64,000 bases of DNA from Bacteroidia bacterium (GCA_030426765.1 JAUHXV010000004.1:1-64000); one strand, 5' to 3'; positions 9,001 to 59,995 are shown, counted from the first letter of the stretch. Notes: a model not told the origin generated them from the letters alone. Program-made: numbers and translations.

Positions 9001-11933
9001 ATGTAGTCGTGGAAACTTCGCCATTCTATTATAGCGACATTAGTGATTACGATCATACTACAGATCCACCGGATACAGATGGTGATGATTCAGGAGATGG
9101 TGCTGATAATGATGTGCCTGTCATTCTGTTGCCAGGTGAAGCCGATGAAGACAACAACTTTATCAACGGAAGACCTGGTTTAATCTGTGGAAGTGTCAAT
9201 GATGATCTGGGGCAACCGATCTCATCAGTGGAGATCAGTTTGTATCATGATCTGAATAATAACGATTCACTGGATGTGGCTGATACGCTTATCATGACTG
9301 TACTGACAGATGGAGACACAGGTGGTTTCTGCTTTGAAGATGTCACACCAGGTGAGTATATCTTAGTGGAAACGCAACCCCTCAACTATTACAGCATCAG
9401 TGATTATGACCATACTACTGATCCTCCGGATACAGATGGAGATGATGAATCTGATGGTCCTGATGATGAAATTCCGGTCACGCTTGTTCCGGCTGAATTA
9501 GACACGAACAATAACTTTATCGATGCTCCATTCCCGGGCTCTATCGAGGGATATGTCTTTAATGATGTCGGCACTCCGATAGATACAGTTAAGATTTATC
9601 TGTATGCCGATAGCGATAATGACGGCGAAGAAGATGGTGCGCCTATCGATTCTGCGTACACAAACATCTTTGGATTCTATGCATTCAGTGGAATACTTCC
9701 AGGCAATTATGTGCTTGTTGAAGAGAATCCACTGTATCATAGTGACATATTTGATTACGATACATCAACCTTCTCGCTCGACTTGGATGGGGATGACAGT
9801 GGCGATGGACCGGACAATAATATTCCGGTGACCATACTCCCTGCGGAAGTGGACGCGGACAACAACTTCACGGATGGTCGTCCGGGCACGATCTGTGGGT
9901 ATGTCGGAACCGATATGGGAGATCCAATGGGCGGAATGATCGTCCAACTCTATGAAGATGAGAATGGCAACGGTGTCATGGATCCTGAGGATGATATGAT
10001 CAAGAGTGAAGTAACGGATGCAGGTACCGGATCGTATTGTTTTGAAGATATCGTGCCGGGTATTTATATCCTGAATCAGGTCCAGCTACCTGAATACGGG
10101 GATTTGTCAGATATCGATGAGACACCAGATCCGGATGGAGATGATTCGTCTGACGGACCAGACAATAATATTCCGGTGGTCCTCGATCCGAATGAAGATG
10201 ATGAGGATAACAATTTTATGGATATCGTATGTCCGGTAGAACCTGAAATCAACGGCTTTGCGATTGATACGATTTGCAGCGGTGAGTCTCTCATATTCGA
10301 AGCGATAGATCAGAATATCGGACCTTTGGCTTATAGCTGGTCATTTGGTTCAGGAGCGACACCGGATAGCGCGATGGGTATCGGGCCACATGAGGTCACA
10401 TTTATCGCAGACTCTATCAATAGCAGTTCAGGAGCTGTCGTTTATCTGACCATTTCAAAAGAAGGATGTATTCCAGCTTTCGACTCAGTGGCCAGTGTGA
10501 TTGTCAATCCGGTGCCGGATGCGACTATCGATGCTTTGACTACCAATCTGTGTTATTATGCTCCGAGAACATATGTTCCGATGGAGGATGAAGTACCAGG
10601 ATATACCTACTTATGGGATTTCGGTGCAGGTGCGGAAGAACAATTTAAGACAGGATACGGACCACATGTAACCGAATGGCATACACCAGGGCCTAAGACA
10701 ATTCAATTGATTGTGCACTCCAATGCGCCAGGGTCATCTTGTAGTGATACCTCGACGATATCCTTTAACGTGATTCCTTGCCTAGGCAATATTACAGGTA
10801 CTGTACGCGATGTGGATGGTAATGGTATTCCAAGTGTAAACGTTCGATTATATCGTGACCTCGATCTCGATGGTGTATCTGACGGAGGTGCAGCAGTCAG
10901 AAGTGTATTTACCACTTCGGAAGGTGTGTACTCAATGGCCACGCTGACACCAGGACAATATGTCATCGTGCAGACTCAGCCAAGTGGCTATCTGTCGGTC
11001 GAGGAGCTGGACGAAACCAATGACAATGATACCATTGTGGTGGATATTGTCAATGACAACGTCATTCCGGTTACGGTCGAACCACAGGAGGTAGATGCGA
11101 ATAACGTATTTATTGAAATTCCTTCTCCGGGTCTGATTTCCGGATCTGTGTTTGAAGATTTCGATGGTGACCAGATGCCGGACGCAGCTGAGGGATTGGT
11201 CGGTGTGACGGTCAGTCTGTGGCTGGATGAAGATGCAGATGGAGAAGCGGATGATGGAGGATTCGTATCTGATACGATTACGTCAGAGATAGGATATTAT
11301 GTCTTCCCGAGTGTGGTACCGGGCAATTATGTCATCATTGAATCACAACCGGCCGGATATGAATCTGTGAAGGATTTTGATGCTACTAACGACGGAGATG
11401 ATGTGCCGAATACGAATATGCTGAACGATACAATTCCGGTCACCGTCGACAATGGGGAAGAAGACAATCACAACTATTTCATTGAGACGACATTGTGCTC
11501 GAGGATAGTAACCAATGACAATGACGATGGACCTGGATCACTGAGGTATAACATCGACTGTGCAGCACCGGGAGATACGATCACTTTCCATTCCGCAATG
11601 CAGGGACAGACGATCCACCTCAATTCAGGACGGATTGTCATTGATAAAGATTTGTTTATCCATTCGGATCTGGTGGCACCGAGTGTTATGGTGTACTCAG
11701 ACGTATCCGGCGCCTTCCTGATTGAAGAAGGTCATACGGTTGAATTGAAGAATATTGAGATTACCAGTGGATTGAGTGGCGAGTCCGGGGCAGCTATTGA
11801 AAATGCGGGCAGCCTGACACTATGGGATATGACGATATATACCAACCCATTACTGCCGGCAGGAGAATACCTGATCTATAACGCATCCACAGGTGAGATC
11901 ACAGTGAAAGGCAACTGTCACATTTGGGAATAA
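3..11933 (+). CDS. Giant Ig-like / SdrD-like repeat surface protein, 5'-truncated
   Basis: The frame is open to the left edge, so the N-terminus and signal peptide lie outside the window; at least 3,976 residues are visible. Domain order: nine near-identical 89-aa Ig-like repeats, two divergent copies and about six further Ig-like units (to about nt 4,680); fifteen alternating SdrD_B/CNA-B-like modules with Asp-rich linkers such as DTDGDDSADGPD (about 4,932-10,220); two PKD-like units; two more SdrD-like modules; then a short segment with GPGSLRYNIDCAAPGDTITF, which resembles the start of a parallel beta-helix domain. The protein ends in GEITVKGNCHIWE, and I see neither a type A nor a type B T9SS sorting domain. 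It is probably an extracellular adhesin or matrix protein, with Asp clusters likely to bind calcium. The function is inferred from architecture only. A hairpin terminator follows the stop codon. Confidence 0.9.
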   Translation, partial: STQTYRVIVSATEAGCEDVVSTEVTVTVEGDIAIDVQPTGGSICEGGDVDLSVTASGSPGLHYEWQWDNAGTWTVVGTDQNTYNTGALTSTQSYRVIVSAVENGCDDLVSTLVTVTVEDDIAIDVQPAGGSICEGGDVDLSVTASGSPGLHYEWQWDNAGTWTVVGTDQNTYNTGALTSTQNYRVIVSASESGCEDVVSTTVTVTVEDDIAIDVQPTGGSICEGGDVDLSVTASGSPGLHYEWQWDNAGTWTVVGTDQNTYNTGALTSTQSYRVIVSASESGCEDVVSTEVTVTVEDDIAIDVQPAGGSICEGGNFDLSVSASGSPGLHYEWQWDNAGTWTVVGTDQNTYNTGALTSTQSYRVIVSATESGCEDVVSTEVTVVVEGDISIDTQPTGGSICEGGDMDLSVSASGSPALHYEWQWDNAGTWTVVGTDQNTYNTGALTSTQSYRVLVTADESGCVDLVSTTVTVTVEDDIAIDVQPTGGSICEGGDLDLSVTASGSPGLHYEWQWDNAGTWTVVGSDQNTYNTGALTSTQTYRVIVSATEAGCEDVVSTEVTVTVEGDIAIDVQPTGGSICEGGDVGLSVTASGSPGLHYEWQWDNAGTWTVVGTDQNTYNTGALTSTQTYRVIVSATEAGCEDVVSTEVTVTVEDDIAIDVQPTGGSICEGGDMELSVTASGSPGLHYEWQWDNAGTWTVVGTDQNTYNTGALTSTQSYRVIVSASEAGCEDVVSTLVTVTVEGDIAIDVQPTGGSICEGGDLDLSVTASGSPGLHYEWQWDNAGTWTVVGADQNTYNTGALTSTQSYRVIISAAEAGCDGLVSSTVTVTVEDDIAIDIQPTGGQICEGGTWDLSVVASGSPGLIYEWQDSTAAGSWAVVSESGGDSAGFTTDPLAETTYYRVFVTANESGCVGVYSNMVTVDVFDDIAISGQPVGGEICTGGVFDLSVVASGSPDLSYQWQDSTAAGTWQNVSEAGGTTTSFTTDTLLETTWYRVFLFASENGCDDIFSDEVEVNVTADPQLVTSGDAEVCVGGLVHMSVTVTGGVGTSSYQWQRLNGTWVDVAGATDSINSVVFSQLGTFEYRVIVTQGEGCESISETITINVVTDPDAVITPSASEVCDGGVVTIVATINGGSGVTTYYWQQFLAGSWVPVGTNNDTFVTPSLATGSYNYRLQYTQNPGCDGGSNTVNIQVNDDPTVIISGDELACEGESITISSTINDGVAPYSYSWQELQGGDWVEVDTTISTFNTGVLTEGTYTYRLQIDNDLACDAISDPISIEVASPPVVTVSAAANPICHGGVASLSGTVTEGNGSSTYAWQYNHPTNGWSPVGSNSPNYSVALPTGTYEYRLIVTQTSGCVTISDPYIMNVNPDPTVTISADNPSICVGGNALLTSVVTGGTTHLSYQWYSGPTSVGTWTAISGATADSLLLTASAPGTTWYRVSVVDSASGCSDPSSGAVSITVEEDPVVTLAQYDTVNCLGDALLLSVSVTGGTGDNHYQWQSFDGADWVNEGADTADYDPGVLPAGTHEYRVIVTQNSGCETLSSSFEFAVLDYPDGSLASTPASCGNNAGTITVSFADYPLADGIMISLDGGNSYYPSVPDTIGSTTFTDQSPGTYAVWAKWDSDDCAIFIDSIEVTELACGTICGKVTDDTGQPLSNVEIILYQDTNNDDEYDAGDTYYATAYTDGDTGIYCFEDVPAGEYVVFEVQPANYYSVSDYDHTTDPPDTDGYAGANDPDDMIPATVDPGELDLDNDFIEDPYLGSISGTVFDDDSTGLVSIEVRLFADTEGDGIPDGAVLSTVFTDSNGEFLFAGLEPGFYVLIEINPPLYSDESDYDRTTSGPDFDGDDSADGPDGDIPVYVAPGEADDDNNFEDGRPGTICGNVSNEYNQPLSNVEILLYLDVNNNDSLDMDDIHIQTVYTDGDSGDYCFEDVTPGEYVIFEIQPMNHTSISDYDHSTGGFDEDGHPSADDPDNEIPVTLFPIEIDANNNFIEDGIVGNISGHVTNDIGAPISGVVLSIHLDTNGDGVADGPALVSTTTNVSGEYIFTGVEPGFYVIIETTPMFYSNISDYDHSINSEDMDGDDSADGPDLDIPVLLLPAEEDEDNDFVNGRPGTICGYVRDDTGLPLAGVELNLYLDVNNNDSLDVADIEVATTFTDGDSGAYCFEDIPPDEYIVFEVQPANYSSVSDYDESIDGSDMDGAASADDPDNEIPVTLMPAESDMDNNFVEDPFLGTISGTVTDDSNAPIVSVEIQLFEDTNADGNADGVAISTTFTNSSGDYIFTGIEPGYYVVIEITPLYYSSMSDYDHSTAPPDTDGDDSADGPDDDIPVMVLPGEDDADNDFQDGRPGMICGSVYDDTGLPIASVELHLYHDLNNNDSLDVADTLIAITFTDGDTGNYCFEDVTPGEYIVFEVQPLNYFSVSDYDLSVDANDTDGDDNADGPDDEIPVTLSPNEVDDDNDFIEDPFLGTIAGQVTDDAGSPMPGVTIELYEDTNADGNADGAAIATVVTNGVGAYVFTGVEPGFYVVQEVSPLYYSDISDYDHTTDAPDTDGDDSADGPDNDIPVMLTPGEDDEDNNFENGRPGSICGNVSDDTGLYISNVEIRLYLDVNNDGMYDGGDILVATTYSDGDSGDYYFEDITPANYVVVEIQPANYTSVSDYDHTTDPPDTDGDDSADGPDDEIPVTLTPAEIDCQNDFIEDPVPGDISGFVEDEMNAPMEGVTISLYLDTEPDGNENGAPIATTTTNASGYYIFTGVEPGYYVVVESTPAGYSSISDYDHTTAPPDTDGDDSAQGADDDIPVMMMPGEVDADNNFMNGNPGLICGSVKEDTGVPIEGVELQLYQDVNNNDSLDVADVLVTSTFTDASGAYCFENTSPDEYVIVQVQPANYDNVADHDVSTGPLDDDGYPSADDPDNEIPVTLEPTELDTDNDFVEDPHTGSVSGYVMNDILDPMPGVVVSLFADTNGDGDPDGAALASTSTNGSGYYEFVGLEPGDYVVVETSPFYYSDISDYDHTTDPPDTDGDDSGDGADNDVPVILLPGEADEDNNFINGRPGLICGSVNDDLGQPISSVEISLYHDLNNNDSLDVADTLIMTVLTDGDTGGFCFEDVTPGEYILVETQPLNYYSISDYDHTTDPPDTDGDDESDGPDDEIPVTLVPAELDTNNNFIDAPFPGSIEGYVFNDVGTPIDTVKIYLYADSDNDGEEDGAPIDSAYTNIFGFYAFSGILPGNYVLVEENPLYHSDIFDYDTSTFSLDLDGDDSGDGPDNNIPVTILPAEVDADNNFTDGRPGTICGYVGTDMGDPMGGMIVQLYEDENGNGVMDPEDDMIKSEVTDAGTGSYCFEDIVPGIYILNQVQLPEYGDLSDIDETPDPDGDDSSDGPDNNIPVVLDPNEDDEDNNFMDIVCPVEPEINGFAIDTICSGESLIFEAIDQNIGPLAYSWSFGSGATPDSAMGIGPHEVTFIADSINSSSGAVVYLTISKEGCIPAFDSVASVIVNPVPDATIDALTTNLCYYAPRTYVPMEDEVPGYTYLWDFGAGAEEQFKTGYGPHVTEWHTPGPKTIQLIVHSNAPGSSCSDTSTISFNVIPCLGNITGTVRDVDGNGIPSVNVRLYRDLDLDGVSDGGAAVRSVFTTSEGVYSMATLTPGQYVIVQTQPSGYLSVEELDETNDNDTIVVDIVNDNVIPVTVEPQEVDANNVFIEIPSPGLISGSVFEDFDGDQMPDAAEGLVGVTVSLWLDEDADGEADDGGFVSDTITSEIGYYVFPSVVPGNYVIIESQPAGYESVKDFDATNDGDDVPNTNMLNDTIPVTVDNGEEDNHNYFIETTLCSRIVTNDNDDGPGSLRYNIDCAAPGDTITFHSAMQGQTIHLNSGRIVIDKDLFIHSDLVAPSVMVYSDVSGAFLIEEGHTVELKNIEITSGLSGESGAAIENAGSLTLWDMTIYTNPLLPAGEYLIYNASTGEITVKGNCHIWE
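93..2495 (+). repeat. Nine tandem 267-bp Ig-like repeats
   Basis: Nine copies of exactly 89 codons begin at 93, 360, 627 and so on, followed by a divergent tenth copy at 2,496. The end of a further copy occupies positions 3-92, so the array continues beyond the window. Each unit opens with DIAIDVQP(T/A)GGSICEGG and contains two cysteines and the segment HYEWQWDNAGTWTVVG. Copies are close at DNA level. In the first 35 codons of copies 1 and 2 I count four synonymous and one amino-acid difference. This suggests recent duplication or gene conversion. Confidence 0.95.
4932..10220 (+). repeat. SdrD/CNA-B-like A/B dimer array, 708-bp period
   Basis: Two module types alternate. Type A starts with G(T/S/L/M)ICG and carries a DVNNNDSLDVAD-like segment. 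Type B starts with G.ISG and carries a DTNGDG..DG-like segment. Type A modules start at 4,932, 5,640, 6,348, 7,056, 7,764, 8,472, 9,177 and 9,885, so the dimer period is 708 bp, with one interval of 705 bp. There are eight A and seven B modules. Most modules end in an Asp-rich stretch followed by (D/E)IPV, the kind of sequence that commonly binds calcium in such proteins. Confidence 0.9.
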
Positions 11934-12176: not shown

Positions 12177-15100
12177 ATGAGAATAAATGCTGAACACGCA
12201 CCATATTGCACTGAAAATCAGTCTGTTATAGCTCAAATGAACAGAGCCTGGTTATGTATTTTGTCTGTAGGTCTTTTGCTGCCTCTCAGGTGGCTTCCTA
12301 ATGCCATGTCCAAACCCGCCGGCTTTATGCTGCCGGTCGTTGCTACCGCCGTTATGGTGACCTGTGGTGAGCTTGTGCTCAACAACCCCACAGTTTCTCC
12401 TGCCGGACCCTATTGTCCCGGTGATATGATAGATATCACCTTCACCGGTTCAAACCTTCCGGATGGTGAGGATTTGGAAGTTTTTATTGGTGACAACTCA
12501 GGCTACAACCCATTTTCCGGAGGGGGCACATCTATAGGCACCATTCCAATCGGATATAATTGCTCTACCTGCCCTTCACTTTTAGGTTTGACAGTCAATG
12601 TTTGCCTGAATGATGATGAGAATGAGTTTATGCTGATTCACTCAGGTTGCGGATTTGATGTTTCAGATCTCTTTGTGGATTTATTGCCGGTAGGTCTGTC
12701 AGCTAATGATTTAGGTTCCGTCAATGGATGTCCCTTTATGCAGCCTTCAGCATCTGTGATGTCCGCCTTGCAATCAAATACGGATTGTTCTAATCTGAAT
12801 GTCATTGCTGCAGGTGATGGTGATGCCATTCCTGCTGCTGCTTTAGTCATAGTCTTCATGACAGACACAGGTCCCTTCATTGATTACGACATCTCTTATT
12901 TATGTGGAACTGGTTTGCCGATTTATGTGATTCAGAATAGCTGTGATTTGGGGATAGCAGGAGCTTTTTCTAATAGTAGTTGTCCTCGCACGTACTCCAT
13001 TGATATTGCAGGATCGTGTTATGATGCGATCACCTATCAATGCCCGATTCAGGATCCACCGGGAGGCGGACATTCGTTTATCGATGAGAATGGTGCCTGG
13101 TATACTAGCAGCAATTGCGACGATCCTCCGTTTAGCTCACTGAACTATCCCGATATCTCGAATGATCTGGCCTCTTTGTCCTATACCATTCCTTCAAATA
13201 TTTGCGGAGCGAATAATGGCCTGATTGATTTCTATTTGTCAGGTATGGTGGATATCCCGGGTCCTTGTGAAGATCTGATTTATACCCCTCCTTCAGGCGC
13301 ATCCATCAGTGTGGCTTGTCCGGCTACGATTGATCCGGCAGGTCCATTTTGTGTGAATAATGATCCGGTGACCTTAACCGTTGATGAACCGGGTGGTACC
13401 TGGTCAGGAACGGGTATTATTGATGCAAATAATGGAATTTTTGATCCGGGTGTGGCAGGTACAGGGACTCACGTCATTTCTTATGATGCCGGATGTCCCG
13501 GAGGCCCGTCGACAATTAATATTACCGTAAACGATGCCCCTGTCATTAATCCGTTTTTCATTACATCGGCCACAACTTGTGCAGGAGACTCATCGGGTCA
13601 GATTGTAAATTCCTCCTGGGTGACCGGAGGCACCATGCCCTATACGTATGATTGGGATGCACAGTCTACCCCGGGAAATGACGTGTATACAGATGATGGT
13701 AATATGTTTTTACCTCATAGTTTAAGTAATGTCCCGGCCGGGTGGTATGATTTTATTGTCATAGATGCGGCAGGATGTGTGGATACAGTTTCTGTAGAAG
13801 TCACAGAAGGCGATCCGGTCACTGCAGTTCTTGAAATAGATTCTATAGAATGCTATGGTGAATCCACCGGTGCAATTGATATCGTATCCTCTGATGGCCC
13901 TCCTGTTCCACCAGTCTACAACTGGGATGACCTGTCCACACCAGGTGATGATGATTTTGGTGGTGATCCCGCAGTTGATGATGACATGGAGGACATTTCA
14001 GGCCTTCCGGCAGGTACCTACGCAATCACTATCACTTACGAAGACCCGGGATTTTTCGAGTGTGTCTTCATCGATACCATTGTCATTGTTGAACCCCCTG
14101 AGTTAATTGTAACCGCACCAGACTCCTTGATTGATTGTTTTGGAGGTACTGTGGATATCACCGCAGTCGCCACAGGCGGTACAGGTACATATACGTATAA
14201 CTGGTCAAATATTGGCGGGTCTAACAATCCGGCCACGAATGCGAATATTGGAGTGGGGAGTTATATCGTGACGGTTACGGATGAAAATGGTTGTACCGCA
14301 TCAGATGTATCGACCATTACCCAACCTCCGCTCCTGACAGCCTCTGCCACGGGAGAGACTATTGATTGTGATGACAATACAGGGGATATCACACTGGTCA
14401 TTATGGGTGGAACAGGTCCGTTCCTGTTTGACTGGGATAATGACGGTACAGGTGACAATGACGATCCGCAAAATTTATCCGGTTTAAACTCCGGAACATA
14501 TTCAGTCACGGTTACAGACGCAAACGGTTGTACAGCGGTAGCATCAGCCATGATTGATCTCAATCCCACAACCTTTATGATGCCTCCGGACGATGGATCT
14601 ACTGTTCCATGCATTTTGGATGCGCAAACAGTGCCCACACCTCCTGTAGTGCTTAACTCCTGTAATGATCCACTGACTATCACTGGCCCTGCTGTAAGTG
14701 TAGATCCGGTGTGTTCCGGAACCAAGACCTATACGTACACGTACACGGACCCCTTCACAGGCATTATGGCTACATGGGTGTATACATACACAGTATCTCC
14801 GCCCACCTTTACCCTGCCTGCTAACGGTAGTTCTACGGTAGCTTGTATTCTTGATGCCCAAACTGTCCCTACACCTCCACCTACCAATGACGATTGCGGT
14901 CAACCGCTGACCATTACTGGTCCGGCTGTAAGTGGAGATCCGATGTGCTCCGGTACAAAAACATATACCTGGGATTATACAGACTGCTCAGGAACTTCAG
15001 CGCAATGGGTATATACCTACACAATTTCTCCGCCTACTTTCAGTATGCCTGCCGCTGGGGGTTCCACGGTCGCCTGTGTAATTGATGCACAGACTGTGCC

Positions 15101-18100
15101 GACGCCCCCAGTAGTAAATAATTCCTGCGGTGATGCATTGACGATGACAGGTCCTGTTATTGGGCCTGATCCCACATGTTCCGGAGATAAAACCTATACC
15201 TGGACGTATACGGATTGTACAGGGACTTCAGCTGACTGGGTGTACACCTATACGGTTGACCCGTCTACGTTTAGTTTGCCTGCAGATGGAGGTTCTACTG
15301 TCGCCTGTATCATTGATGCTCAGGTTCAGCCTACGCCACCTCCGGTAAACAATTCCTGTGGTGACCCATTAACAATCACCGGACCGGTCATTGGTCCTGA
15401 TCCGGTGTGTTCCGGAACAAAGACTTATACCTGGGATTATGAAAACTGTGATGGCACCTCAAGTCCATGGGTATACACATACACCATTTCTCCTCCGACA
15501 TTCTCACTCCCGCCAAATGGTGCTTCTACTGTCGCCTGTATCAGTGACGCGCAGACGGTTCCCTCACCACCAACAGTCAATAACTCGTGCGGAGACCCGA
15601 TTACCCCAACAGGACCTGTCATTGGCGCTGATCCTGTCTGCTCCGGTGATAAAACATATACCTGGACATATACCGATTGTACTGGTACATCCGCAGATTG
15701 GGTGTATACCTATACCGTAAGTCCACCGACATTTTCATTGCCGCCCAATGATGGCTCCACTGTCCCTTGTATCGGTGACGCCCAAACCGTACCGACACCA
15801 CCGACTGTAAATAATTCCTGTGGCGATCCCATTACGCCGACCGGGCCAGTTATCGGACCCGATCCTGTATGTGATGGAGATAAAACCTATACCTGGACAT
15901 ACACCGATTGTACAGGTACGTCAGCGGATTGGGTGTATACATATACGGTTCAACCAACGACCTTTACCTTACCGGCCGATGGTAGTTCGACCGTGGCCTG
16001 TATCAGTGATGCACAGACCGTACCGACACCTCCAACAGTCATTAATTCATGTGGTGATCCAGTAGTTCCAACAGGGCCAGTCGTTGGACCCGATCCGGTT
16101 TGTTCCGGAGATAAAATATATACCTGGACCTATACGGATTGTGATGGAAATGATTTTCCATGGGTGTATACCTATACAGTCGATCCTCCTACGTTTACCA
16201 TGCCTGCAGCTGGTGGTTCAACAGTAGCATGTGTGGCAGATGCCCAAACCGTACCGACACCGCCTACGGTCAACAATTCATGCGGAGATCCATTATCTGT
16301 TAGTGGTCCTGTTGTCGGCCCTGACCCGGTCTGTACAGGCGATAAAACCTATACCTGGACCTACACAGATTGTACGGGCACCTCAGCAGATTGGGTATAT
16401 ACCTACACAGTGGATCCGCCTACATTTACTCTGCCGGGAGGGGGTAGTTCGACTGTGCCCTGCGTCAGTGATGCACAGACAGTTCCGACGCCACCCGTTG
16501 TGAATAACTCCTGTGGTGATGCATTGACCATTACAGGTCCTGTTGTGGGTCCTGATCCGGTGTGTTCAGGTACAAAAACATATACCTGGGATTATACAGA
16601 TTGTACCGGAACATCAGGCCAATGGGTGTACACCTATACAATCGATCCTTCAACGTTTACTTTGCCTGCAGACGGATCTTCAACAGTCGCGTGTATCAGT
16701 GATGCCCAGACCGTGCCTACGCCACCGGTGGTCACCAACTCCTGTGGGGATCCCTTGACCGTAACAGGTCCTGTAGTCGGTCCTGATCCGGTATGTTCCG
16801 GAACCAAAACATATACCTGGGATTATGAGAATTGTGATGGTTCTACTTTACCTTGGGTGTATACGTACACGATTAATCCACCTACCTTCTCAGTTCCTGC
16901 TGACGGATCTTCAACCGTAGCGTGTATCAGTGACGCGCAAACCGTTCCAACACCACCTGTAGTCACCAATTCCTGCGGGGATCCGATTACACCAACAGGT
17001 CCTGTAGTGGGTCCTGATCCGGTGTGTTCCGGAGATAAGACATATACCTGGACGTATACAGATTGTACAGGGACATCGGCGGATTGGGTGTATACCTATA
17101 CCGTAGACCCACCTACATTTTCACTGCCTGCTAATGATGGATCAACGGTACCATGTATTGGGGACGCGCAAACCGTACCGACTCCTCCAACCGTTAATAA
17201 TTCATGTGGTGACCCAATTACACCGACTGGTCCTGTAGTAGGTCCTGATCCGGTGTGTTCCGGTGATAAAACCTATACCTGGACCTATACAGATTGTACG
17301 GGTACTGCTGCAGACTGGGTATACACGTATACTGTGCAACCTACTACATTTACTTTGCCACCTGATGATGGCTCGAATGTAGCCTGCATCAGTGATGCAC
17401 AAACGGTGCCTTCTCCTCCGGCCGTGATTAACTCGTGTGGTGACCCAGTTACTCCAACAGGTCCTGTGATAGGCCCTGATCCGGTGTGTTCCGGAGACAA
17501 GACATATACGTTTACGTATACAGATTGTGATGGGAATGATTTCCCATGGGTGTATACCTACACAGTAGATCCTCCAACATTTACCTTGCCTGCTGACGGT
17601 TCTTCCACAGTGGCTTGTGTCAGTGATGCACAGACTGTGCCGACACCACCTGCAGTGAATAATTCCTGCGGGGATCCATTGACGATTAGCGGACCTGTTG
17701 TAGGCCCTGACCCGGTTTGTACCGGTGATAAGACTTATACCTGGACCTATACAGATTGTACAGGAACATCCGCAGACTGGGTGTACACCTATACGGTGGA
17801 TCCGCCGACGTTTACGCTACCCGCAGCAGGTGGTTCTACAGTGCCGTGTGTGAGTGATGCACAGACAGTTCCGACACCACCCGCAGTGAATAATAGCTGT
17901 GGCGATGCTTTAACCATTACAGGTCCTGTAGTGGGTCCTGATCCGGTTTGCTCCGGAACCAAAACCTATACCTGGGATTATACAGATTGTACGGGTACAT
18001 CCGGACAATGGGTGTATACCTATACGATCGATCCTTCTACATTTACACTGCCAGCGGATGGAAGCTCAACCGTTGCTTGTATCAGTGATGCGCAAACTGT

Positions 18101-21100
18101 ACCCACGCCACCTGTGGTGACCAATTCCTGTGGTGATCCGTTGACCGTGACCGGCCCTGTTGTTGGTCCTGATCCGGTATGTTCAGGAACAAAGACCTAT
18201 ACCTGGGATTATGAAAATTGTGATGGTTCGACTCTCCCATGGGTGTATACCTATACGATCGATCCCCCGACATTTACGTTACCTGCAGATGGATCTTCTA
18301 CAGTGGCTTGTATCAGTGATGCGCAGACTGTGCCCACTCCGCCAGTAGTCAATAACTCTTGTGGGGATCCAATTACACCGACCGGTCCTGTAGTGGGTCC
18401 TGATCCGGTGTGTTCCGGCGATAAGACCTATACCTGGACGTATACAGATTGTACAGGTACTTCGGCGGATTGGGTGTATACCTACACGGTAGATCCTCCG
18501 ACCTTTACACTCCCGGCTGATGATGGTTCGAATGTGGTATGTGTCAGTGACGCTCAAACCGTACCGACACCCCCGACTGTCAATAACTCCTGTGGCGATG
18601 CCATTACACCTACGGGACCAGTAGTTGGTCCAGATCCGGTGTGTTCCGGCGATAAGACCTATACCTGGACGTATACGGATTGTACAGGAACATCAGCCGA
18701 CTGGGTATATACGTACACAGTTGACCCATCTACGTTTACATTACCTGCTGATGACGGATCAACAGTTGCGTGTATTAGTGATGCGCAGGTTGTGCCAACA
18801 CCTCCGGCCGTGATTAACTCATGTGGTGACCCTGTTACACCCACCGGCCCTGTTGTAGGTCCTGATCCGGTTTGTTCCGGAGATAAAATATATACCTGGA
18901 CCTATACGGATTGTGATGGAAATGATTTCCCATGGGTGTATACCTACACGGTAGATCCACCAACCTTTACCCTTCCGGCAGCAGGAGGTTCAACTGTAGC
19001 GTGCGTAAGTGATGCACAGACTGTGCCCACTCCGCCTGTAGTTAATAACTCTTGTGGTGATCCGTTGACGATAAGTGCTCCTGTCGTAGGCCCTGATCCG
19101 GTTTGTTCCGGTGACAAGACCTATACCTGGACGTATACCGATTGTACAGGTACGTCAGCCGATTGGGTGTATACCTACACTGTTGATCCGCCAACGTTTA
19201 CACTTCCGGCGAATGATGGCTCTACAGTGCCCTGCGTCAGTGATGCCCAGACAGTACCAACACCCCCTTCAGTAAACAACTCCTGCGGTGATCCACTGAC
19301 CATCAGTGGTCCTGTTGTGGGAGTAGATCCGGTTTGCTCGGGTGATAAAACATATACCTGGACGTTCACAGACTGTACCGGTACATCAGCCGATTGGGTG
19401 TATACCTATACTGTTGATCCTTCCACGTTTACACTTCCTGCCGACGGAAGCTCTACGGTTGCATGTATCAGTGATGCGCAGACAGTACCAACACCTCCTG
19501 TAGTGACCAATTCATGTGGAGATCCGCTGACGGTGACAGGACCTGTCGTAGGCCCTGATCCGGTTTGTTCAGGAACAAAGACCTATACCTGGGATTACGA
19601 AAACTGTGATGGTTCGACACTTCCATGGGTTTATACATACACTATCGATCCACCTACGTTTACCCTGCCTGCAGATGGTTCTTCCACGGTTGCTTGTATC
19701 AGTGATGCGCAAACCGTTCCGACACCACCAACTGTTAATAATTCCTGCGGTGATCCAATAACTCCGACCGGACCTGTCATTGGCCCTGATCCTGTGTGTA
19801 CAGGAGATAAAACGTATACCTGGACATATACTGACTGTACAGGTACTTCTGCAGATTGGGTGTATACCTACACAGTAGATCCTCCGACATTTACATTGCC
19901 GGCCAATGATGGCTCAACAGTTCCATGTATCAGTGACGCACAGACTGTACCCACACCACCTTCAGTCAATAATTCATGTGGGGATGCGATTACACCGACC
20001 GGACCTGTAATTGGTCCTGATCCTGTTTGCTCCGGAGATAAGACCTATACATGGACCTACACCGATTGTACGGGAACATCTGCTGACTGGGTGTATACCT
20101 ACACAGTGGATCCATCAACCTTTACGCTACCGGCGGATGATGGTTCGACAGTTGCCTGTATCAGTGATGCGCAAACCGTCCCCACACCTCCTGCAGTAAT
20201 AAACTCCTGTGGTGATCCGGTGACACCGACGGGACCTGTTGTAGGTCCTGACCCTGTTTGCTCCGGAGATAAAACCTATACCTGGACGTATACAGACTGC
20301 GATGGAAATGATTTTCCTTGGGTGTATACGTATACCGTAGATCCACCGACATTTACTTTGCCTGCTGATGATGGCTCAACCGTTGCGTGTGTCAGTGATG
20401 CACAAACGGTGCCCACGCCACCAACTGTCAATAATTCCTGTGGTGATCCGCTGACAATTTCCGGCCCTGTTGTGGGACCTGATCCTGTGTGTACAGGAGA
20501 CAAAACCTATACGTGGACCTATACTGACTGTACCGGTACATCCGCTGATTGGGTGTATACGTATACAGTAGATCCACCGACATTTACTTTACCTGCAAAC
20601 GATGGTTCTACAGTACCATGCGTCAGTGATGCACAAACAGTACCGACACCTCCGGTAGTCAATAACTCCTGTGGTGATGCGCTGACGATCAGTGGTCCTG
20701 TAGTGGGTACCGATCCAGTTTGCTCAGGCGATAAGACTTATACCTGGACGTATACCGACTGTACCGGCACATCTGCTGACTGGGTGTATACCTACACAGT
20801 CGATCCGTCTACATTTACTTTACCTGCAGATGGCGGTTCGACCGTAGCATGTATCAGTGATGCGCAGGTGGTTCCAACGCCGCCGGTGGTTACCAATTCC
20901 TGTGGTGATCCACTGACCGTTAGTGGCCCTGTCGTAGGCCCTGATCCGGTGTGTTCAGGGACGAAAACATATACATGGGATTATACGAACTGTGATGGTT
21001 CAACTTTGCCATGGGTGTATACCTACACCATCGACCCTCCAACTTTTACCCTTCCGGCGGATGATGGTTCGACCGTAGCTTGTATCAGTGATGCGCAGAC

Positions 21101-24100
21101 AGTGCCCACACCACCATCGGTGAATAACTCTTGTGGTGATCCGATTACCCCAACCGGTCCTGTCGTAGGTCCTGATCCCGTATGTTCAGGCGATAAGACC
21201 TATACCTGGACGTATACGGACTGTACCGGCACATCTGCTGACTGGGTGTATACCTACACAGTAGATCCACCAACTTTTACACTACCTGCTGATGATGGAT
21301 CAACAGTGCCGTGTATCAGTGACGCACAGACAGTGCCGACCCCACCGACAGTGAACAACTCATGTGGTGATCCTATCGTACCGACGGGTCCTGTCATAGG
21401 TCCTGATCCGGTATGTGCGGGTGATAAAACCTATACCTGGACCTATACAGATTGCACAGGCACATCTGCGGATTGGGTCTATACGTATACGATAGATCCT
21501 TCGACATTTACTTTGCCGGCGGATGATGGTTCAACAGTAGCTTGTATTAGTGATGCACAAACTGTTCCCACGCCTCCTGCAGTGATTAATTCATGCGGAG
21601 ATCCCGTAACGCCAACAGGACCTGTAATTGGTCCTGACCCGGTATGTTCCGGCGATAAGACCTATACCTGGACCTATACCGATTGCGCAGGAATGGACTT
21701 TTTGTGGGTATATACGTATACAGTAGATCCACCGACGTTCACTTTGCCTGCCGATGATGGTTCGACCGTAGCCTGTGTCAGTGATGCGCAGACGGTTCCA
21801 ACACCGCCCGTTGTCAATAACTCATGTGGTGATCCTATCACGCCTACGGGTCCTGTAGTCGGTCCCGATCCGGTATGTTCCGGCGACAAGACCTATACAT
21901 GGACCTACACCGATTGTACCGGTACCTCCGCAGATTGGGTATATACGTATACCGTGGATCCACCAACGTTCACGCTGCCTGTGGATGATGGTTCGACCGT
22001 AGCCTGTGTCAGTGATGCGCAGACTGTACCAACACCACCAGTTGTGAATAATTCCTGTGGCGACCCACTGACGATTTCTGGTCCTGTGGTTGGACCCGAC
22101 CCGGTATGTTCCGGCGATAAGACCTACACGTGGACCTACACCGATTGTACGGGTACTTCAGCTGATTGGGTGTATACCTATACGGTAGACCCATCCACCT
22201 TTACCTTACCTGCTAATGACGGATCTACAGTCGCTTGTATCAGTGACGCACAGACTGTGCCGACTCCACCGGTCGTGAATAATTCATGCGGCGATCCGCT
22301 GACGATTTCTGGTCCTGTAGTTGGACCCGACCCGGTATGTTCCGGAGATAAGACATACACCTGGACGTATACCGACTGTTCAGGTGCTTCATCAGACTGG
22401 GTGTATACCTATACAGTCGATCCGCCTACTTTTACCCTACCGGCAGATGATGGTTCGAATGTAGCCTGTATCAGTGATGCTCAGGCTGTGCCAACGCCAC
22501 CGGTCGTGAATAATTCGTGCGGAGATCCATTGACAGTTTCAGGTCCCGTAATCGGTCCTGACCCTGTTTGTTCGGGTGATAAGACATATACCTGGACGTA
22601 TACTGATTGTACGGGTGCCTCTGCTGACTGGGTGTATACCTATACAGTCGATCCACCTACATTTACGCTACCTGCAGATGATGGTTCGATGGTGGCTTGT
22701 AACAGTGATGCACAGGTAGAACCCATACCACCGGTCGTGAATAATTCGTGCGGAGATCCATTGACAGTTTCAGGTCCCGTAGTCGGTCCCGATCCGGTTT
22801 GTTCGGGAGATAAGACATACACCTGGACGTATACCGATTGTACGGGTACATCTTCAGATTGGGTGTATACCTATACCATCGATCCTTCTACATTTACGTT
22901 GCCTGCAGATGATGGTTCAAATGTCGCATGTGTGAGTGATGCGCAGACGGTGCCAACGCCTCCTGCGGTGATTAACTCCTGTGGTGATCCTGTGACGCCA
23001 ACAGGTCCTGTAGTCGGTCCTGATCCGGTTTGTTCCGGAGACAAAACATATACCTGGACGTATACGGATTGTGCAGGTACAGACTTTTTCTGGGTGTACA
23101 CGTATACCGTTGATCCACCAACATTTACTTTACCTGCGGATGATGGATCTAATGTGGCCTGCGTAAGTGATGCACAGGTTGTGCCAACTCCACCTGCCGT
23201 AGATGATTCTTGTGGAGAGCCTATAACACCTACGGGACCGGTAATCGGTCCTGATCCGGTTTGCTCCGGCGATAAGACCTATACATGGACCTATACCGAT
23301 TGTACGGGTGCCTCTGCGGATTGGGTGTATACGTATACCGTTGATCCACCAACATTTGCGCTTCCTGCAGATGATGGATCAACAGTGGCTTGTGTGAGTG
23401 ATGCACAGGTACAACCCGTTCCTCCTGCTGTCAGCAACTCCTGTGGTGATCCATTGACCATTTCCGGACCTGTAGTGGGTCCTGATCCGGTTTGCTCCGG
23501 TGATAAGACTTACACATGGACGTATACCGATTGCACAGGTGCTTCTGCGGATTGGGTGTATACATACACCGTTGACCCATCCACATTTACGCTTCCTGCG
23601 GACGGTTCATCCACCGTTGCTTGTATCAGTGATGCACAAGTAGAGCCAACACCACCGGTAGTGACAAACTCTTGTGGTGATCCGCTTACGATATCCGGCC
23701 CGGTAGTAGGTCCTGATCCGGTTTGTTCCGGTGACAAAACGTACACATGGGATTATACCAATTGCGATGGTTCTACAAGTCAATGGGTGTATACGTATAC
23801 GATCGATCCACCGACCTTTACCTTACCCGCAGATGATGGTGCGACAGTCGCTTGTATCAGTGATGCGCAGACGGAGCCGATCCCACCGGTAGTCAACAAC
23901 TCCTGTGGTGATCCATTGACCATTTCCGGACCTGTAGTAGGTCCTGATCCCGTATGTTCCGGAGACAAGACCTATACCTGGACGTATACCGATTGTACGG
24001 GAACTTCCGCGGACTGGGTCTATACGTATACAGTCGATCCGCCCACCTTTACTTTGCCGGCAGACGATGGTTCTACTGTAGACTGTGTCAGTGATGCACA

Positions 24101-27100
24101 AGTAGAGCCTGTACCTCCTGCGGTGAATAATTCCTGTGGCGATCCTATTGCACCAACTGGCCCTGTAATAGGAGTTGATCCGGTTTGTTCGGGTGATAAA
24201 ACCTACACATGGACCTATACCGATTGCGATGGCACATCGGCGGATTGGGTGTATACCTACACCGTTTTACCTACAGTCTTTACGCTTCCTCCGGATGATG
24301 GATCTAATGTTCCGTGTATCAGTGATGCGCAAACAGAACCGACACCTCCGGTCGTATTAAATGACTGTGGGGATGTTGTGGTGCCTTCGGGTCCTGTTAT
24401 TGGACCTGACCCGGTTTGTTCGGGTGATAAAACCTATACCTGGACCTTCACAGATTGCGTAGGCAATTCTCTTCCATGGGTCTATACATATACCGTTGAT
24501 CCGCCAACATTTACTTTACCTGCGGATGATGGTTCAACAGTGGCCTGTATTAGTGATGCTCAGGTAGAGCCTGTTCCGCCAGTTGTAGTAAACTCTTGTG
24601 GTGATCCAATTACCCCAACAGGTCCGGTGATCGGTGCTGATCCGGTTTGTACAGGAGACAAAACCTATACGTGGACCTATACGGACTGTACCGGTACATC
24701 CGCTGATTGGGTGTATACCTATACGGTGGATCCACCGACATTTACGTTGCCGGCAGATGACGGTTCCACTGTGGCTTGTGTCAGTGATGCACAGGTTGAA
24801 CCCGTACCACCCGCAGCGAATAACTCATGTGGCGATCCATTGACGATTTCCGGTCCAACCGTAAGTCCGGATCCTGTGTGTTCCGGTACGAAAACCTATA
24901 CGTGGGATTACACAGATTGTACCGGCACCTCCGCGCAATGGGTATATACGTACACAGTAGATCCTTCTTCATTTTCATTACCTCCGGATGATGGGTCTAC
25001 GGTGGCATGTATCAGTGATGCTCAGGTGGAACCAACGCCCCCTGTCGTGACCAACTCATGCGGCGATCCTCTGACGATTTCCGGGCCTGTGGTAGGTCCT
25101 GATCCTGTTTGTTCAGGAGATAAAACATATACATGGGATTATACCAACTGCGATGGCTCGTCCAGTTCATGGGTATACACCTATACGATAGATCCACCTT
25201 CGTTTACCTTGCCGGCTGATGATGGCACAACAGTAGCTTGTGTGAGTGATGCCCAGGTAGAACCAACTCCTCCCGTCGTGAATGACTCATGCGGTGATCC
25301 GGTGATGCCAACAGGCCCCGTCGTAGGACCTGATCCTGTGTGTTCCGGCGATAAGACCTATACCTGGACCTATACGGATTGTACAGGGGCTACAGCAGAT
25401 TGGGTGTATACCTATACCGTCGATCCGCCAACCTTTACACTACCGGTTGATGATGGTTCTACAGTACCTTGTATAGTAGACGCCCAGGTGGAGCCTGTAC
25501 CTCCTGTGGTGACCAATTCCTGTGGAGATGATATTATACCTACCGGACCGGTAGTGAGTGCTGACCCTGCATGTTCCGGCGATAAGACCTATACCTGGAC
25601 CTATACAGATTGTGACGGAACAAGTCTTGACTGGACCTATACCTATACTATCACCGGTGATACAGGACCTGTTTTTACAGCGCCTCCTGCAGACATTACA
25701 GTAGCATGTGTGGCGGATGTGCCAGCTATGATCTCATTGAGTTATACCAATGATTGTAGTCCTGGCGGTATGGTTGCTGGTACGGATTCACCCATCAGTG
25801 GGTCATGTCCGGCAACCATCACACGTACCTGGACATTCACCGATGCTTGCGGAAATGTCGGGACAGTTACGCAGGACATCACGATTGACGATACAACTCC
25901 TCCGACTGCTTCTGATCCTTCATCAATTATCGTAGCAGCTTGTAATGATCCTGTTCCTGCGCCGGATATTTCAGTAGTCACGGATGCTGCCGACAATTGC
26001 AGCACACCGGTAGTAGCTTTTGAAAGCGATGTAACCGATTTAATGGGATGTACCGAAACTACCACCCGCACATTTACAGTCACAGATGCATGTAATAACA
26101 GTATCACCGTGACACAACTGATCATCAGAACAGTGGATATGGATCCTCCTGTTTTCACGGATCCTCCCGCTGACCTTTCCGTCGATTGTATTTCTCAGGT
26201 TCCACCGATGGAAGATCTTGACTATACGGACAATTGTAGTGCGGATGGTACAGTAATGGGTACTGAAACAGGTCCGAGTGGTGATCCGCTGACCATCGTC
26301 AGAGAATGGACGGTGACAGATGATTGTGGAAATGGTGCCACACACACCCAAACCATTACCATTACTGAAGTCATTAATGAAACAAACCTGACCCCTGTTT
26401 TATGTGTTGGGGATATTTATACATTACCCGATGGAAATACCACCACCATGAGTGGTATGTATGGCCCTTATTTATTTACAGGCAGTAATGGCTGCGACTC
26501 AACCGTTAATGTTGATCTCACATTCATTACCGGTACAACCGGAGAGGAGTTATACAACGGCTGTCAGGGTGACGGCTACTCCGTTGTAGTGAATGGCAAT
26601 ACCTATGATGAATTTACTCCTACGGGAATGGAAACGATTCCGGGTAGCAATGGTTGCGATTCAATTGTGACTATTGACCTTACGTTTAATATGCCTACCA
26701 CAGGTGAAGAGTTGTATACGGGTTGTGAAGGAGATGGTTATTCGGTTGTGGTGAATGGAAATACCTATGATGAGTTAACCCCTATGGGAACAGAGACCCT
26801 CACAGGTGCCAATGGCTGTGATTCTGTCGTGACCATTGATTTAACCTTCCATCCTAATACGACCGGCGAAGAATTGTATGCCGGCTGTGAAGGCGATGGC
26901 TACTCTGTTGTGGTAAATGGTACAACGTATGATGAATTGAATCCAAATGGAACGGAGACGTTATTAAATGCTAACGGATGTGATTCAATTGTCACCATTG
27001 ATCTGACGTTTGCACCCGCCGGAACAGGTGAAGAATTGTATACCGGCTGTGAAGGGGATGGGTATTCAGTTGTGGTAAATGGCACAACATATGATGAATT

Positions 27101-30100
27101 TAATCCGAATGGTGTTGAAATGTTCCCTGGTTCGGGAGGTTGTGATTCAACCGTGACAATTGATTTGATCTTTAATCCAATTGCAACAGGTGAAGAATTG
27201 TATACCGGTTGTGAAGGAGATGGTTATTCGGTTGTGGTGAATGGAAATACCTATGATGAAATGACCCCTATGGGCACAGAGACGCTCCCAGGCGCCAATG
27301 GCTGTGATTCTGTCGTTACCATTGATCTAACATTCCACCCCAATACGACCGGCGAAGAATTGTATACCGGTTGTCAAGGAGATGGCTACTCTGTTGTGGT
27401 AAATGGAACGACGTATGATGAGTTAAATCCGAATGGAACTGAAACGTTTTTAAATGCCAATGGCTGCGATTCAACCGTAACCATTGATCTGACGTTTGCG
27501 CCTGCCGGAACAGGTGAGGAGTTATATACCGGCTGTGAAGGGGATGGCTACTTTGTTGTGGTAAATGGGAATACGTATGATGAATTCACGCCAAATGGAA
27601 CTGAGACCTTCCCGGGTTCAGGTGGATGTGACTCTACGGTGACCATTGATTTGGACTTTTTTCCTATGACTACCGGCGAAGAACTGTATACCGGCTGTGA
27701 AGGGGATGGCTATTCAGTTGTGGTGAATGGAAATACGTATGATGAATTAACTCCAATGGGTACAGAAACGCTTACCGGAAGTAATGGCTGTGATTCTGTC
27801 GTCACCATTGATTTGACCTTTAATGCCAATACAACAGGTGAGGAACTTTACACCGGTTGTGAAGGAGATGGCTACAGTGTAGTAGTCAATGGTACGACCT
27901 ATGATGAATCCAATCCAACGGGTACGGAAACGATTTCCGGTGCGGGCTGTGATTCAATTGTGACTATAGATCTGACGTTTGTGCCTTTTGTAGAAGCAGA
28001 GATTTCTCCTGCCGGCCCATACTGTACATCTGCAGGAGTCATGACCTTGGTTGCCGTACCGGCCGGAGGTACGTGGTCCGGTGATGTCAATAGTGATCAG
28101 TTTGACCCTGCTGCGCTTGGCACTGGTTCCCATCAGGTGATCTATACCAGCCCTGCAGGTGCCTGCCAGACTGCTGACACGATTTATGTTGATGTATACG
28201 AATTAGAAATATCCTGCGAGGTATTGGCAGATGAATCTGCACCTAATGCCTTTGATGGACGTGGACAGGTCACGGTGACCGGTGGCGTTCCCCCATATAC
28301 GATTTCCTGGTCTGGTCCCATGAGTGGATCAGGTGTTTTAAATGCAGATGGTCCTTTTATGATCACTGGTCTCACCGGCGGTGTCTACACGGTTGAAGTG
28401 GAAGATGCGACAGGATGTATCGCAACCTGTGAGTTTACCATCATGACGCCTGTGCCTTGTGATCTGATGATCGATGCACCGGATATCGTAGACGCTACCT
28501 GTCCCGGAGTAAATAATGGATCTATCCTGGTTAACGTCACTGGAACCATGCCTCCGTTTGAGTATTCACTCGATGGTATCAATTTTGATCCAAATAATTT
28601 CTTTGATCAGTTAGCGCCGGGCAACTACACCATTTACGTCAGAGATGATGCAGGATGCGAAGAAACGCTGGATGTAGTTGTAGGTGTAGGGGATGGGCCG
28701 GAGCTTGAACTCGTAGAAGTAATTGATGCATCGTGTGGTTTGGATAACGGATCAATTGAAGTTACGGCGAGCGGAGGAACCACACCTTATATGTATTCAG
28801 TCGATGGAGTGACATACGGCTTATCTGATCTATTCCCCGGTCTTGCACCTGGCGAATATCTCGTATACTTAATAGATGATGCGGGTTGTACGGATACAAT
28901 TCCTGTAGATATAAACTCCACAGACTCTCCTGTGATCGATGATATCATTATTGCAGGTTCTTCCTGTGGTCAGTCAGATGGAGGGATAACGATTATCGCC
29001 TCAGGAGGTCTTGGCGTCCTGATGTACTCCATCAATGGAGGTGGTTCCTTCCAGGCCTCTAATGTATTTACCGGATTACCTGCCGGAAACTATCCGATAG
29101 TCGTTCAGGATGAGGCAGGATGTCAGGTTACCGGCAATGCCATGATCTCCGATGTCGGTGGACCGATGATTGATAATGTTGTCGTCGATCCTGCGGGTTG
29201 CGGATTGTTTAACGGTGTGATTACGGTCACAGCATCAGGCGTTCCTACGCTGATGTATTCGTTAAACGGTGGAACACTCCAATCCAGTAATGTATTCAGC
29301 AACTTGCTTCCGGGCAATTATACCCTGCTCGTTCAGGATGGTAATGGTTGTGACATAACGCAACAGGTAACCGTCACAACAACAGACGGACCTGTCATTA
29401 ACAGTCTGACACCTACCCATACGACATGTGACGAAGAGAATGGTGAAATCGCCATTTCGTGGTCAGGCGGTACAGGTGGAATTGAGATATTTGTGGATGG
29501 CGACAGCTATGGAGACCAAAGCCCAATAACAGATTTGCCGGCAGGTACCTATACAGTTGAAGTTGTTGATGATAACGGATGTTCAGCTTCAAATACTGTA
29601 ACGATCAATCCTTCAGAAGCACCTGACTTTGATGTCTATATCACACCTGCCAATTGCGGACTTGCCAATGGTGTGATTGAATTGGATGGATTTGACGGAA
29701 CACCTCCTTATACATACTCAATCAATAATGGACCGTTCTCTCCCACATTCACCTTTGTCAATAGAATTTCTGATTTCTATATTATGCAGATCAGAGATGC
29801 GAATGGATGTATCTATGAAGAAGAAGTATTCCTGTGGGAAGCACCGGGGCCGGAAATAACAAATATCATCACGACAAACCCACCTTGCGGTTCCACCGCC
29901 GGGATGATCCAGGTGATCACTGACCCTGCGACAGATATTGAGTATTCCATTAACGTACCGACATATCAGGATTCAAACAAATTTGTCAATGTGGCTCCGG
30001 GGACGTATACCGTGACCATCAGAGACGAGTTTGGATGTACAGATACCGGAACTGCCACAATTGAAGCAACTCCTACACCTGAAGTTTCAGCAGTGGTTGT

Positions 30101-44067: not shown

Positions 44068-44288
44068 TGAATGGTAGCCTTTCAATGCTTTGAAAGGGAA
44101 TTTAGAGAGATCAAAATGCCTTGGCCGCGCTTCAGCGCATGGCCATCTTTCAGGCGAAACAAAACGGAAAAAAATTGCCCCGTGCTTTAGGGAAAATGAA
44201 ATAAAGGAAATTCCTGTCCGCGCTTTAGTGCCGGACAATCTTATGTGATCCTTCTTTTTAAAAAATTGCCCCGTGCTTTAGCTCGGGG
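44068..44288. repeat. Intergenic cluster of hairpin repeats (REP-like)
   Basis: The 491-base gap between the WecA-family gene and the desaturase gene holds several hairpins. One is TGAATGGTAGCCTTTCAATG with an eight-pair CCTTTCAA/TTGAAAGG stem (44,068-44,100). One is a GGCC-GCGC-TTCA-GCGC-AT-GGCC hairpin (44,122-44,146). One is a truncated CCCCGTGCTTTAGGG (about 44,177-44,192). One is TGTCCG...CGGACA around CGCTTTAGTGC (44,215-44,237). The last is a full CCCCGTGCTTTAGCTCGGGG (44,269-44,288). Three of these elements recur in, or closely resemble, the array near 59.7 kb. They look like members of one mobile or REP-like intergenic family. Confidence 0.75.
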
Positions 44289-59668: not shown

Positions 59669-59995
59669 TGAATGGTAGCCTTTCAATGCGTTGAAAGGGA
59701 TTAGGTGAGCTGGAGAAATCGAACTCAAGGAAAAGATGCCCCGTGCTTTAGCTCGGGGCTAAAACCATCCAGCGCAAAGGAGAGCGGCAAAATCCTACCC
59801 CGTGCTTTAGCTCGGGGCTTGTGCAAGAAAGCGAAATCAAACTCAAGGAGTAGATACCCCGTGCTTTAGCTCGGGGCAAAAACCATCCAGCGCAAAAGAG
59901 AGCGGCAAAATCCTACCCCGTGCTTTAGCTCGGGGCAAAAAACAATCCAACGCAAACGAGAGCGGCAAAATCTTGACCCGTGCTTTAGCTCGGGG
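59669..59995. repeat. Regular array of five hairpin repeats, 59-60 bp period
   Basis: A TGAATGGTAGCCTTTCAATG element (59,669-59,700) is followed by five copies of CCCCGTGCTTTAGCTCGGGG at 59,739, 59,798, 59,857, 59,916 and about 59,976. The last copy has one C fewer. Spacing is 59, 59, 59 and 60 bases. The hairpin core is CCCCG-T-GC-TTTA-GC-T-CGGGG. The spacers fall into two similar types, one containing AACTCAAGGA and one AGAGCGGCAAAATC. The same two elements occur at 44.07-44.29 kb. This fills most of the 765-base gene-free region between the S41 protease and rhomboid genes. Confidence 0.85.

Follow-up and report, generated by a model that had tools for sequence, protein, structure and literature searches.

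A Six-Domain Register Older than a Species Split in the HYR_4C Array of a Giant, Predicted T9SS-Secreted Bacterial Protein

The 48 tandem HYR_4C domains of a giant protein encoded by a Bacteroidia bacterium stand in a six-domain register, which resides in the protein sequence, has outlived the near-saturation of the synonymous sites and is shared with a sister species of the same genus. We consider it probable (roughly three chances in four) that the array forms the stalk of a T9SS type B secreted protein and that it arose through duplication of multi-domain blocks, followed by purifying selection and by rare local exchange between units that left the register unshifted. The gene lies in the window, by which we mean the whole 64,000-nt stretch analyzed here (GCA_030426765.1, JAUHXV010000004.1:1-64000), the opening 64 kb of a contig that is 123 kb long; its features are collected in table 1.

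Architecture and Predicted Secretion of the Host Protein

All 48 units match HYR_4C individually (73–101 bits), and six units taken together score 499 bits against the family model (PF23237; cut-off 27). Four cysteines are conserved in each unit (positions 16, 33, 50 and 63), with the exception of unit 1, which lacks the fourth. The C-terminal sorting domain exceeds the cut-offs of both TIGR04131 (41 bits, cut-off 35) and CHU_C (44.7 bits, cut-off 27), more SprB repeats lie between the 54-aa repeats and this domain, and the host genome encodes the T9SS translocon, with SprA (SprA_N, 461 bits) and eight PorP/SprF genes.

An AlphaFold model of two units (pLDDT 91.6, pTM 0.72) is a pair of beta-sandwich domains, whose best structural neighbors are SraP (the top match, Z 7.1), chitinase Ig-like domains, Rib and cadherins; these match scores are middling and show a common arrangement only. 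A six-unit model, built on 56 near-identical rows, was poor (pLDDT 47) and was not used, and a sequence search of the PDB returned no solved relative. The combination of a tandem adhesin-like fold, a sorting signal and SprB repeats fits the long stalk of a secreted surface protein, and from this architecture we infer a rod-like stalk that would project other regions of the protein outward from the cell.

Table 1. Features of the giant open reading frame, in window coordinates.
Feature	Position	Strand	Basis or remark
Giant multidomain ORF, 6,915 aa, predicted T9SS-secreted, holding the array	12177..32924	+	
N-terminal region upstream of the array: hydrophobic signal-like stretch and SprB repeats (PF13573)	12177..14564	+	Signal peptide by eye only
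48 HYR_4C domains as eight hexads; 77 aa and 231 bp each, unit 1 of 78 aa	14565..25655	+	
Hexads 2–5 (units 7–30), most regular part	15954..21497	+	Block matrix
Hexad 6 (units 31–36), phase markers blurred in units 34–36	21498..22883	+	
Hexad 8 (units 43–48)	24270..25655	+	Units 43, 45, 47 and 48 paired 1:1 with the sister species
Three more divergent HYR_4C domains, directly after the array	25656..26375	+	
Nine 54-aa repeats (TGEELY...), with their own three-unit super-repeat	26538..27995	+	
T9SS type B sorting domain, C-terminal	32640..32918	+	CHU_C PF13585, TIGR04131

A Six-Unit Register across 48 Domains

An earlier note on this DNA had described 48 copies at 14571–25661, which is this array with unit boundaries placed two residues further on. 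As that note had it, copies 2–48 are spaced by exactly 231 bp (unit 2 begins at 14799, 234 bp after unit 1), and sequence markers recur at every sixth copy in the places it had named: DGNDFPW in units 7, 13, 19 and 25, giving way to AGMDFLW (31), AGTDFFW (37) and VGNSLPW (43), and DGSTLPW in units 10, 16, 22 and 28, with related forms at 4, 40 and 46. The note had set as its test that sixth neighbors, rather than adjacent units, should be the closest relatives on average, and identity computed at each lag agrees. Protein identity is 0.892, 0.876, 0.859, 0.829 and 0.806 at the same-phase lags 6, 12, 18, 24 and 30, and 0.77–0.825 at lags up to 23 that are not multiples of six (about 0.79–0.825 at lags 1–5 and 7–11); DNA identity is 0.778 at lag 6 versus 0.717–0.735 at lags 1–5. 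Mean DNA identity over all same-phase pairs is 0.751, compared with 0.720 ± 0.0023 when the order of units is shuffled (maximum of 5,000 shuffles, 0.732). Identity is also slightly raised at lag 3 (protein 0.824), a hint that the hexad may have arisen from a doubled triad.

Phase information is carried by 15 columns of the unit (p < 0.001). Residue 2, in the linker, is S or T only in phases 1 and 4 and P in the other phases, phases 1 and 4 also carry unusual hairpins at 62–69, and column 37 holds V, L or I, interchangeable residues that are nonetheless fixed by phase. When units are assigned to a phase by mean identity, 30 of 47 are placed correctly, versus 8.5 with shuffled labels (largest value 18), and the errors fall mostly among the similar phases 2, 3, 5 and 6; this rule replaced a leave-one-out classifier whose unequal class sizes made its result (22/47) misleading.

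The register is sharpest in hexads 2–5, where same-phase protein identity between hexads reaches 0.91–0.94, and is blurred in hexad 6, in which units 34–36 have partly lost their phase markers. Because unit 1 is divergent, the count of exactly eight hexads depends on loosely typed edge units; the six-unit register of the earlier note is confirmed. Collapse or false expansion of the array during assembly was considered and is unlikely, as DNA divergence between units is about 25% and no exact run shared by them exceeds 65 bp.

Synonymous Sites and Exchange between Units

The hexad is nearly absent from the synonymous sites. At residues that two units share, the proportion of identical codons is 0.485 at lag 6, 0.492 at lag 1 and 0.43–0.47 at other lags, against baselines of 0.40 for codon usage and about 0.457 when codons are permuted within each column; between hexads 2–5, synonymous codon identity is 0.46–0.52. 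Codon agreement that is near-flat over lags places the hexad in the protein sequence and marks it as old. By the Nei-Gojobori method, pS at lag 6 is 0.668 (0.763 for resampled codons), dS is about 1.7 and dN is 0.074, giving a dN/dS of about 0.045 that is a rough estimate only at so high a dS. The array is under strong purifying selection on its protein, and its synonymous sites are close to saturated; units 16 and 22, for example, are identical at 77 of 77 residues and only 0.857 identical in DNA.

What recent exchange there is mostly follows proximity. Six exact runs of at least 40 bp are shared between units, where 0.35 would be expected from column-wise codon shuffles, and they join units at lags 1, 1, 1, 2, 2 and 12; the longest exact runs in general mostly connect units one or two apart. 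Two such runs lie in hexad 6 (54 bp between units 35 and 36, and 41 bp between units 32 and 33), and point to exchange between neighbors without loss of register. The shared runs indicate that recent exchange exists, that it is rare and mostly between near neighbors, and that it has left the register in place. A further possibility, that selection disfavors DNA identity between units by scrambling codons beyond chance, was tested and rejected: shared exact runs exceed those of codon shuffles in length, the opposite of what such selection predicts.

These data bear on the earlier note's suggestion that the array grew by six-unit blocks in the manner of satellite higher-order repeats. Growth by six-unit blocks remains the best reading of the similarity pattern; the likeness to satellites is misleading, given that codon identity at lag 6 is no higher than at lag 1 and that successive hexads lack the high DNA identity between successive higher-order units that marks satellites. 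Late unequal crossing-over between six-unit blocks, with turnover still ongoing, would account for the fall in same-phase protein identity as units lie further apart (0.892 to 0.806 from lag 6 to lag 30), which resembles stepwise block growth. However, the best synonymous match falls at a multiple of six in only 5 of 47 units, none of the exact runs of at least 40 bp lies at lag 6, and the register is older than the species split described below. Such recent growth is very improbable, and for the bulk of the array it is refuted by synonymous divergence.

The Register in a Sister Species

Among the genomes compared, the nearest relative is a metagenome-assembled "Bacteroidetes bacterium" (L009), and it provides, as one genome, the sister species of the same genus (G012:C51; L009, L032). 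Its contig begins inside the orthologous array and covers 17 complete units, after which come the domains that follow the array in the window as well (76% identity over 2,421 aa); a sister contig upstream of the array start was sought and not found. The sister units are themselves periodic, with an identity of 0.796 at lag 6 versus 0.675–0.727 at other lags below 12. When the two arrays are aligned from the C-terminal end, protein identity between species is 0.80–0.81 at offsets 0, −6, −12, −18, −24 and −30 and 0.71–0.77 elsewhere, and synonymous identity is flat across offsets (0.44–0.50). A phase profile made from the window alone gives 15 of the 17 sister units their expected phase; under the cruder mean-identity rule 12 of 17 are in phase, and any other shift of the register yields at most 3.

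A protein tree of 64 units from both species, based on 77 columns and with most of its forks unresolved, joins the phase-1 units of both species in one clade (97/90) and 10 of 11 phase-4 units in another (99/99), and phase labels change 18 times over the tree versus 41.8 times when shuffled. Window and sister units pair 1:1 as W43–S43, W45–S45 and W48–S48 (starred support) and as W47–S47. Judged by these comparisons, the six types already stood in this order when the species diverged, and the final hexad has not shifted its position afterwards. The flanking parts of the same genes have a between-species synonymous identity of 0.44–0.51 and are as diverged as the array, which puts divergence within the array at roughly the depth of the species split. 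Within the window, same-phase hexads have a lower pS (0.668) than matching positions between species (0.714), so that some hexads may have been copied or homogenized after the split.

The following history would accommodate these observations. An ancestral gene probably held six HYR_4C domains that were already slightly distinct (S/T at residue 2, V/L/I at 37, P/I at 39 and a variant hairpin at 62–69), and this six-domain block would have been copied several times by recombination at a time when its copies still resembled one another in DNA; the six-unit order was in place before the split from the sister species. Strong purifying selection has since acted on each unit, and successive same-phase units still average 0.89 protein identity. 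As synonymous sites diverged, recombination between units probably became rare, leaving a residue of short exchange tracts, mostly between neighbors, that did not shift the register; the loss of DNA identity may thereby have stabilized the array.

Does the Order of Domains Matter?

A supplementary reading, which would add to a history of block duplication rather than replace it, is that the six-domain period is itself under selection as a ruler or positional code, a role also presumed for the super-repeats of titin and nebulin; every third or sixth domain junction might, for example, have a bend or binding face of its own that has to come back at a constant spacing along the stalk. For 14 phase columns, selected on window data only, the agreement of sister residues is 0.675 with the correct phase and 0.34–0.46 with the five wrong phases, so that phase-specific residues persist despite near-saturation of synonymous sites. 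Their retention in the sister is 0.46, versus about 0.10 for synonymous codons, and this difference indicates that selection has kept them. A ruler would also suit the V, L and I that stay by phase at column 37, and the restriction of S/T at residue 2 to the two phases that carry unusual hairpins. However, slow amino-acid change without shuffling of units would keep the order even if order were irrelevant, the linked residues are equally explained by co-adaptation inside a unit, hexad 6 persists despite partial loss of its phase-4 marker, and related arrays have five, perhaps four units, or no super-repeat at all. We therefore hold selection on the period itself to be a rather doubtful proposition, which would, if true, give a bacterial secreted stalk a built-in positional code, much as in the super-repeats of giant muscle proteins.

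Block Copying in Other Arrays

Arrays outside the genus put the register in context; their HYR_4C units share 43–57% identity with those of the window. Among 21 HYR_4C arrays of at least eight units, 14 are most similar at lag 1 (two arrays of the genome G055 being run together in this count), and among such arrays the earlier note's view that so strict a register is unusual finds fair support. In G055, which belongs to another genus of the same family, an 8,775-aa ORF contains HYR_4C domains of 76 aa arranged in a strict five-unit super-repeat, with protein identity of 0.929, 0.925 and 0.928 at lags 5, 10 and 15 versus about 0.84, and synonymous identity of 0.715, 0.690 and 0.677 at the same lags versus about 0.555. 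Judged by these values, the five-unit array is younger, and its block copying is still legible at synonymous sites. This ORF also holds another array, whose maximum is at lag 6 (protein 0.817, synonymous 0.649). Elsewhere, HYR arrays in L041 (G007:C13) and L060 (G000:C5) peak at lag 4 (z 6.1 and 3.5, respectively) and are possible four-unit super-repeats.

Two further arrays of the window are also composite. The 54-aa repeats downstream of the hexads show protein identity of 0.824 and synonymous identity of 0.608 at lag 3, and this weak period recurs in the sister (0.704 at lag 3 vs. 0.63–0.65 at lags 1, 2 and 4). In the neighboring ORF (21–11933, truncated by the contig start), SdrD_B/CarboxypepD_reg-like domains at 5292–10226 alternate between 115- and 121-aa forms, with protein identity of 0.595 at lag 2 versus 0.437 at lag 1 and flat synonymous identity. 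Together with the G055 array, these cases indicate that the copying of several domains at once is recurrent in this group without being the rule.

The prevalence of lag-1 similarity among HYR_4C arrays, which has the look of single-unit growth, could be taken to mean that the hexads have no block history and that single units were duplicated and then driven by selection to converge on six alternating types. This is the least credible of the alternatives: block copying is a far simpler source of a fixed order of six types, with about 15 linked columns, over 48 units and in two species, and it is recorded at synonymous sites in the five-unit array of G055 and accompanied in the window by the two- and three-unit super-repeats just described. 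For the 48-unit array, block recombination is the mechanism that we infer.

Other repeats and elements of the window lie apart from this argument. Nine 89-aa repeats at 1–2455 have a synonymous codon identity of 0.60–0.69 and no super-repeat, and by that measure are clearly younger than the hexad array. A 485-aa protein (53545–55002) joins histone H1-like KAAPKKK repeats to a C-terminal DksA-like part, an odd combination in which both parts score below NCBI cut-offs. A 20-nt near-palindromic element, CCCCGTGCTTTAGCTCGGGG, occurs at 44269–44288 and 59739–59995, as five copies on a 59–60-bp step and one alone; the genome holds 30 exact copies (none of the reversed control), as in a REP-like family.

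Comparison with Known Systems

Multi-domain block duplication is already known from nebulin, titin and zinc fingers, and what is new here is the bacterial case; we found no paper on super-repeats in HYR arrays in the open-access literature, subscription journals lying outside the search. The array is a clear bacterial example of growth by several domains at once, and the process is visible at different ages: copying in G055 is legible at synonymous sites, the hexads of the window are legible in protein only, and the sister has the same register. Setting the periodicity of synonymous sites against that of the protein distinguishes recent growth of an array from an old pattern that selection has maintained, and makes it testable whether the order of domains matters in giant bacterial stalks.

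The closest comparison by domain is with the HYR_4C arrays of related Bacteroidota, which belong to the same family but, in most of those compared, show nearest-neighbor similarity only. SraP, Rib and RTX extender domains resemble the present units in predicted fold, tandem arrangement and presumed stalk role, but they use other secretion routes and are linked to them by fold (Z up to 7.1), with no sequence relation shown. Persi et al. (2016; PMC5120217) described repeats that at first diverge faster within the protein and are then strongly conserved from species to species, a pattern that the present array fits.

Using the same lag test, Bjorklund, Ekman and Elofsson (2006; PMC1553488) found that expansion by several domains at a time is the usual mode for domain repeats, the duplicated block comprising seven domains in nebulin and six in one human zinc-finger protein. 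The array shares with the nebulin super-repeats a similarity peak several domains apart; their examples are mainly eukaryotic, whereas ours is a bacterial secreted HYR_4C protein with a unit of six, near-saturated synonymous sites and a cross-species check. In the A-band of titin, residues are conserved according to position within the super-repeat (PMC10665226), and there too sandwich domains follow one another in a fixed multi-domain order, a likeness for which we claim no homology. The order in titin is tied to the thick filament, whereas the likeness of the present array to it lies in domain arrangement and sequence pattern.
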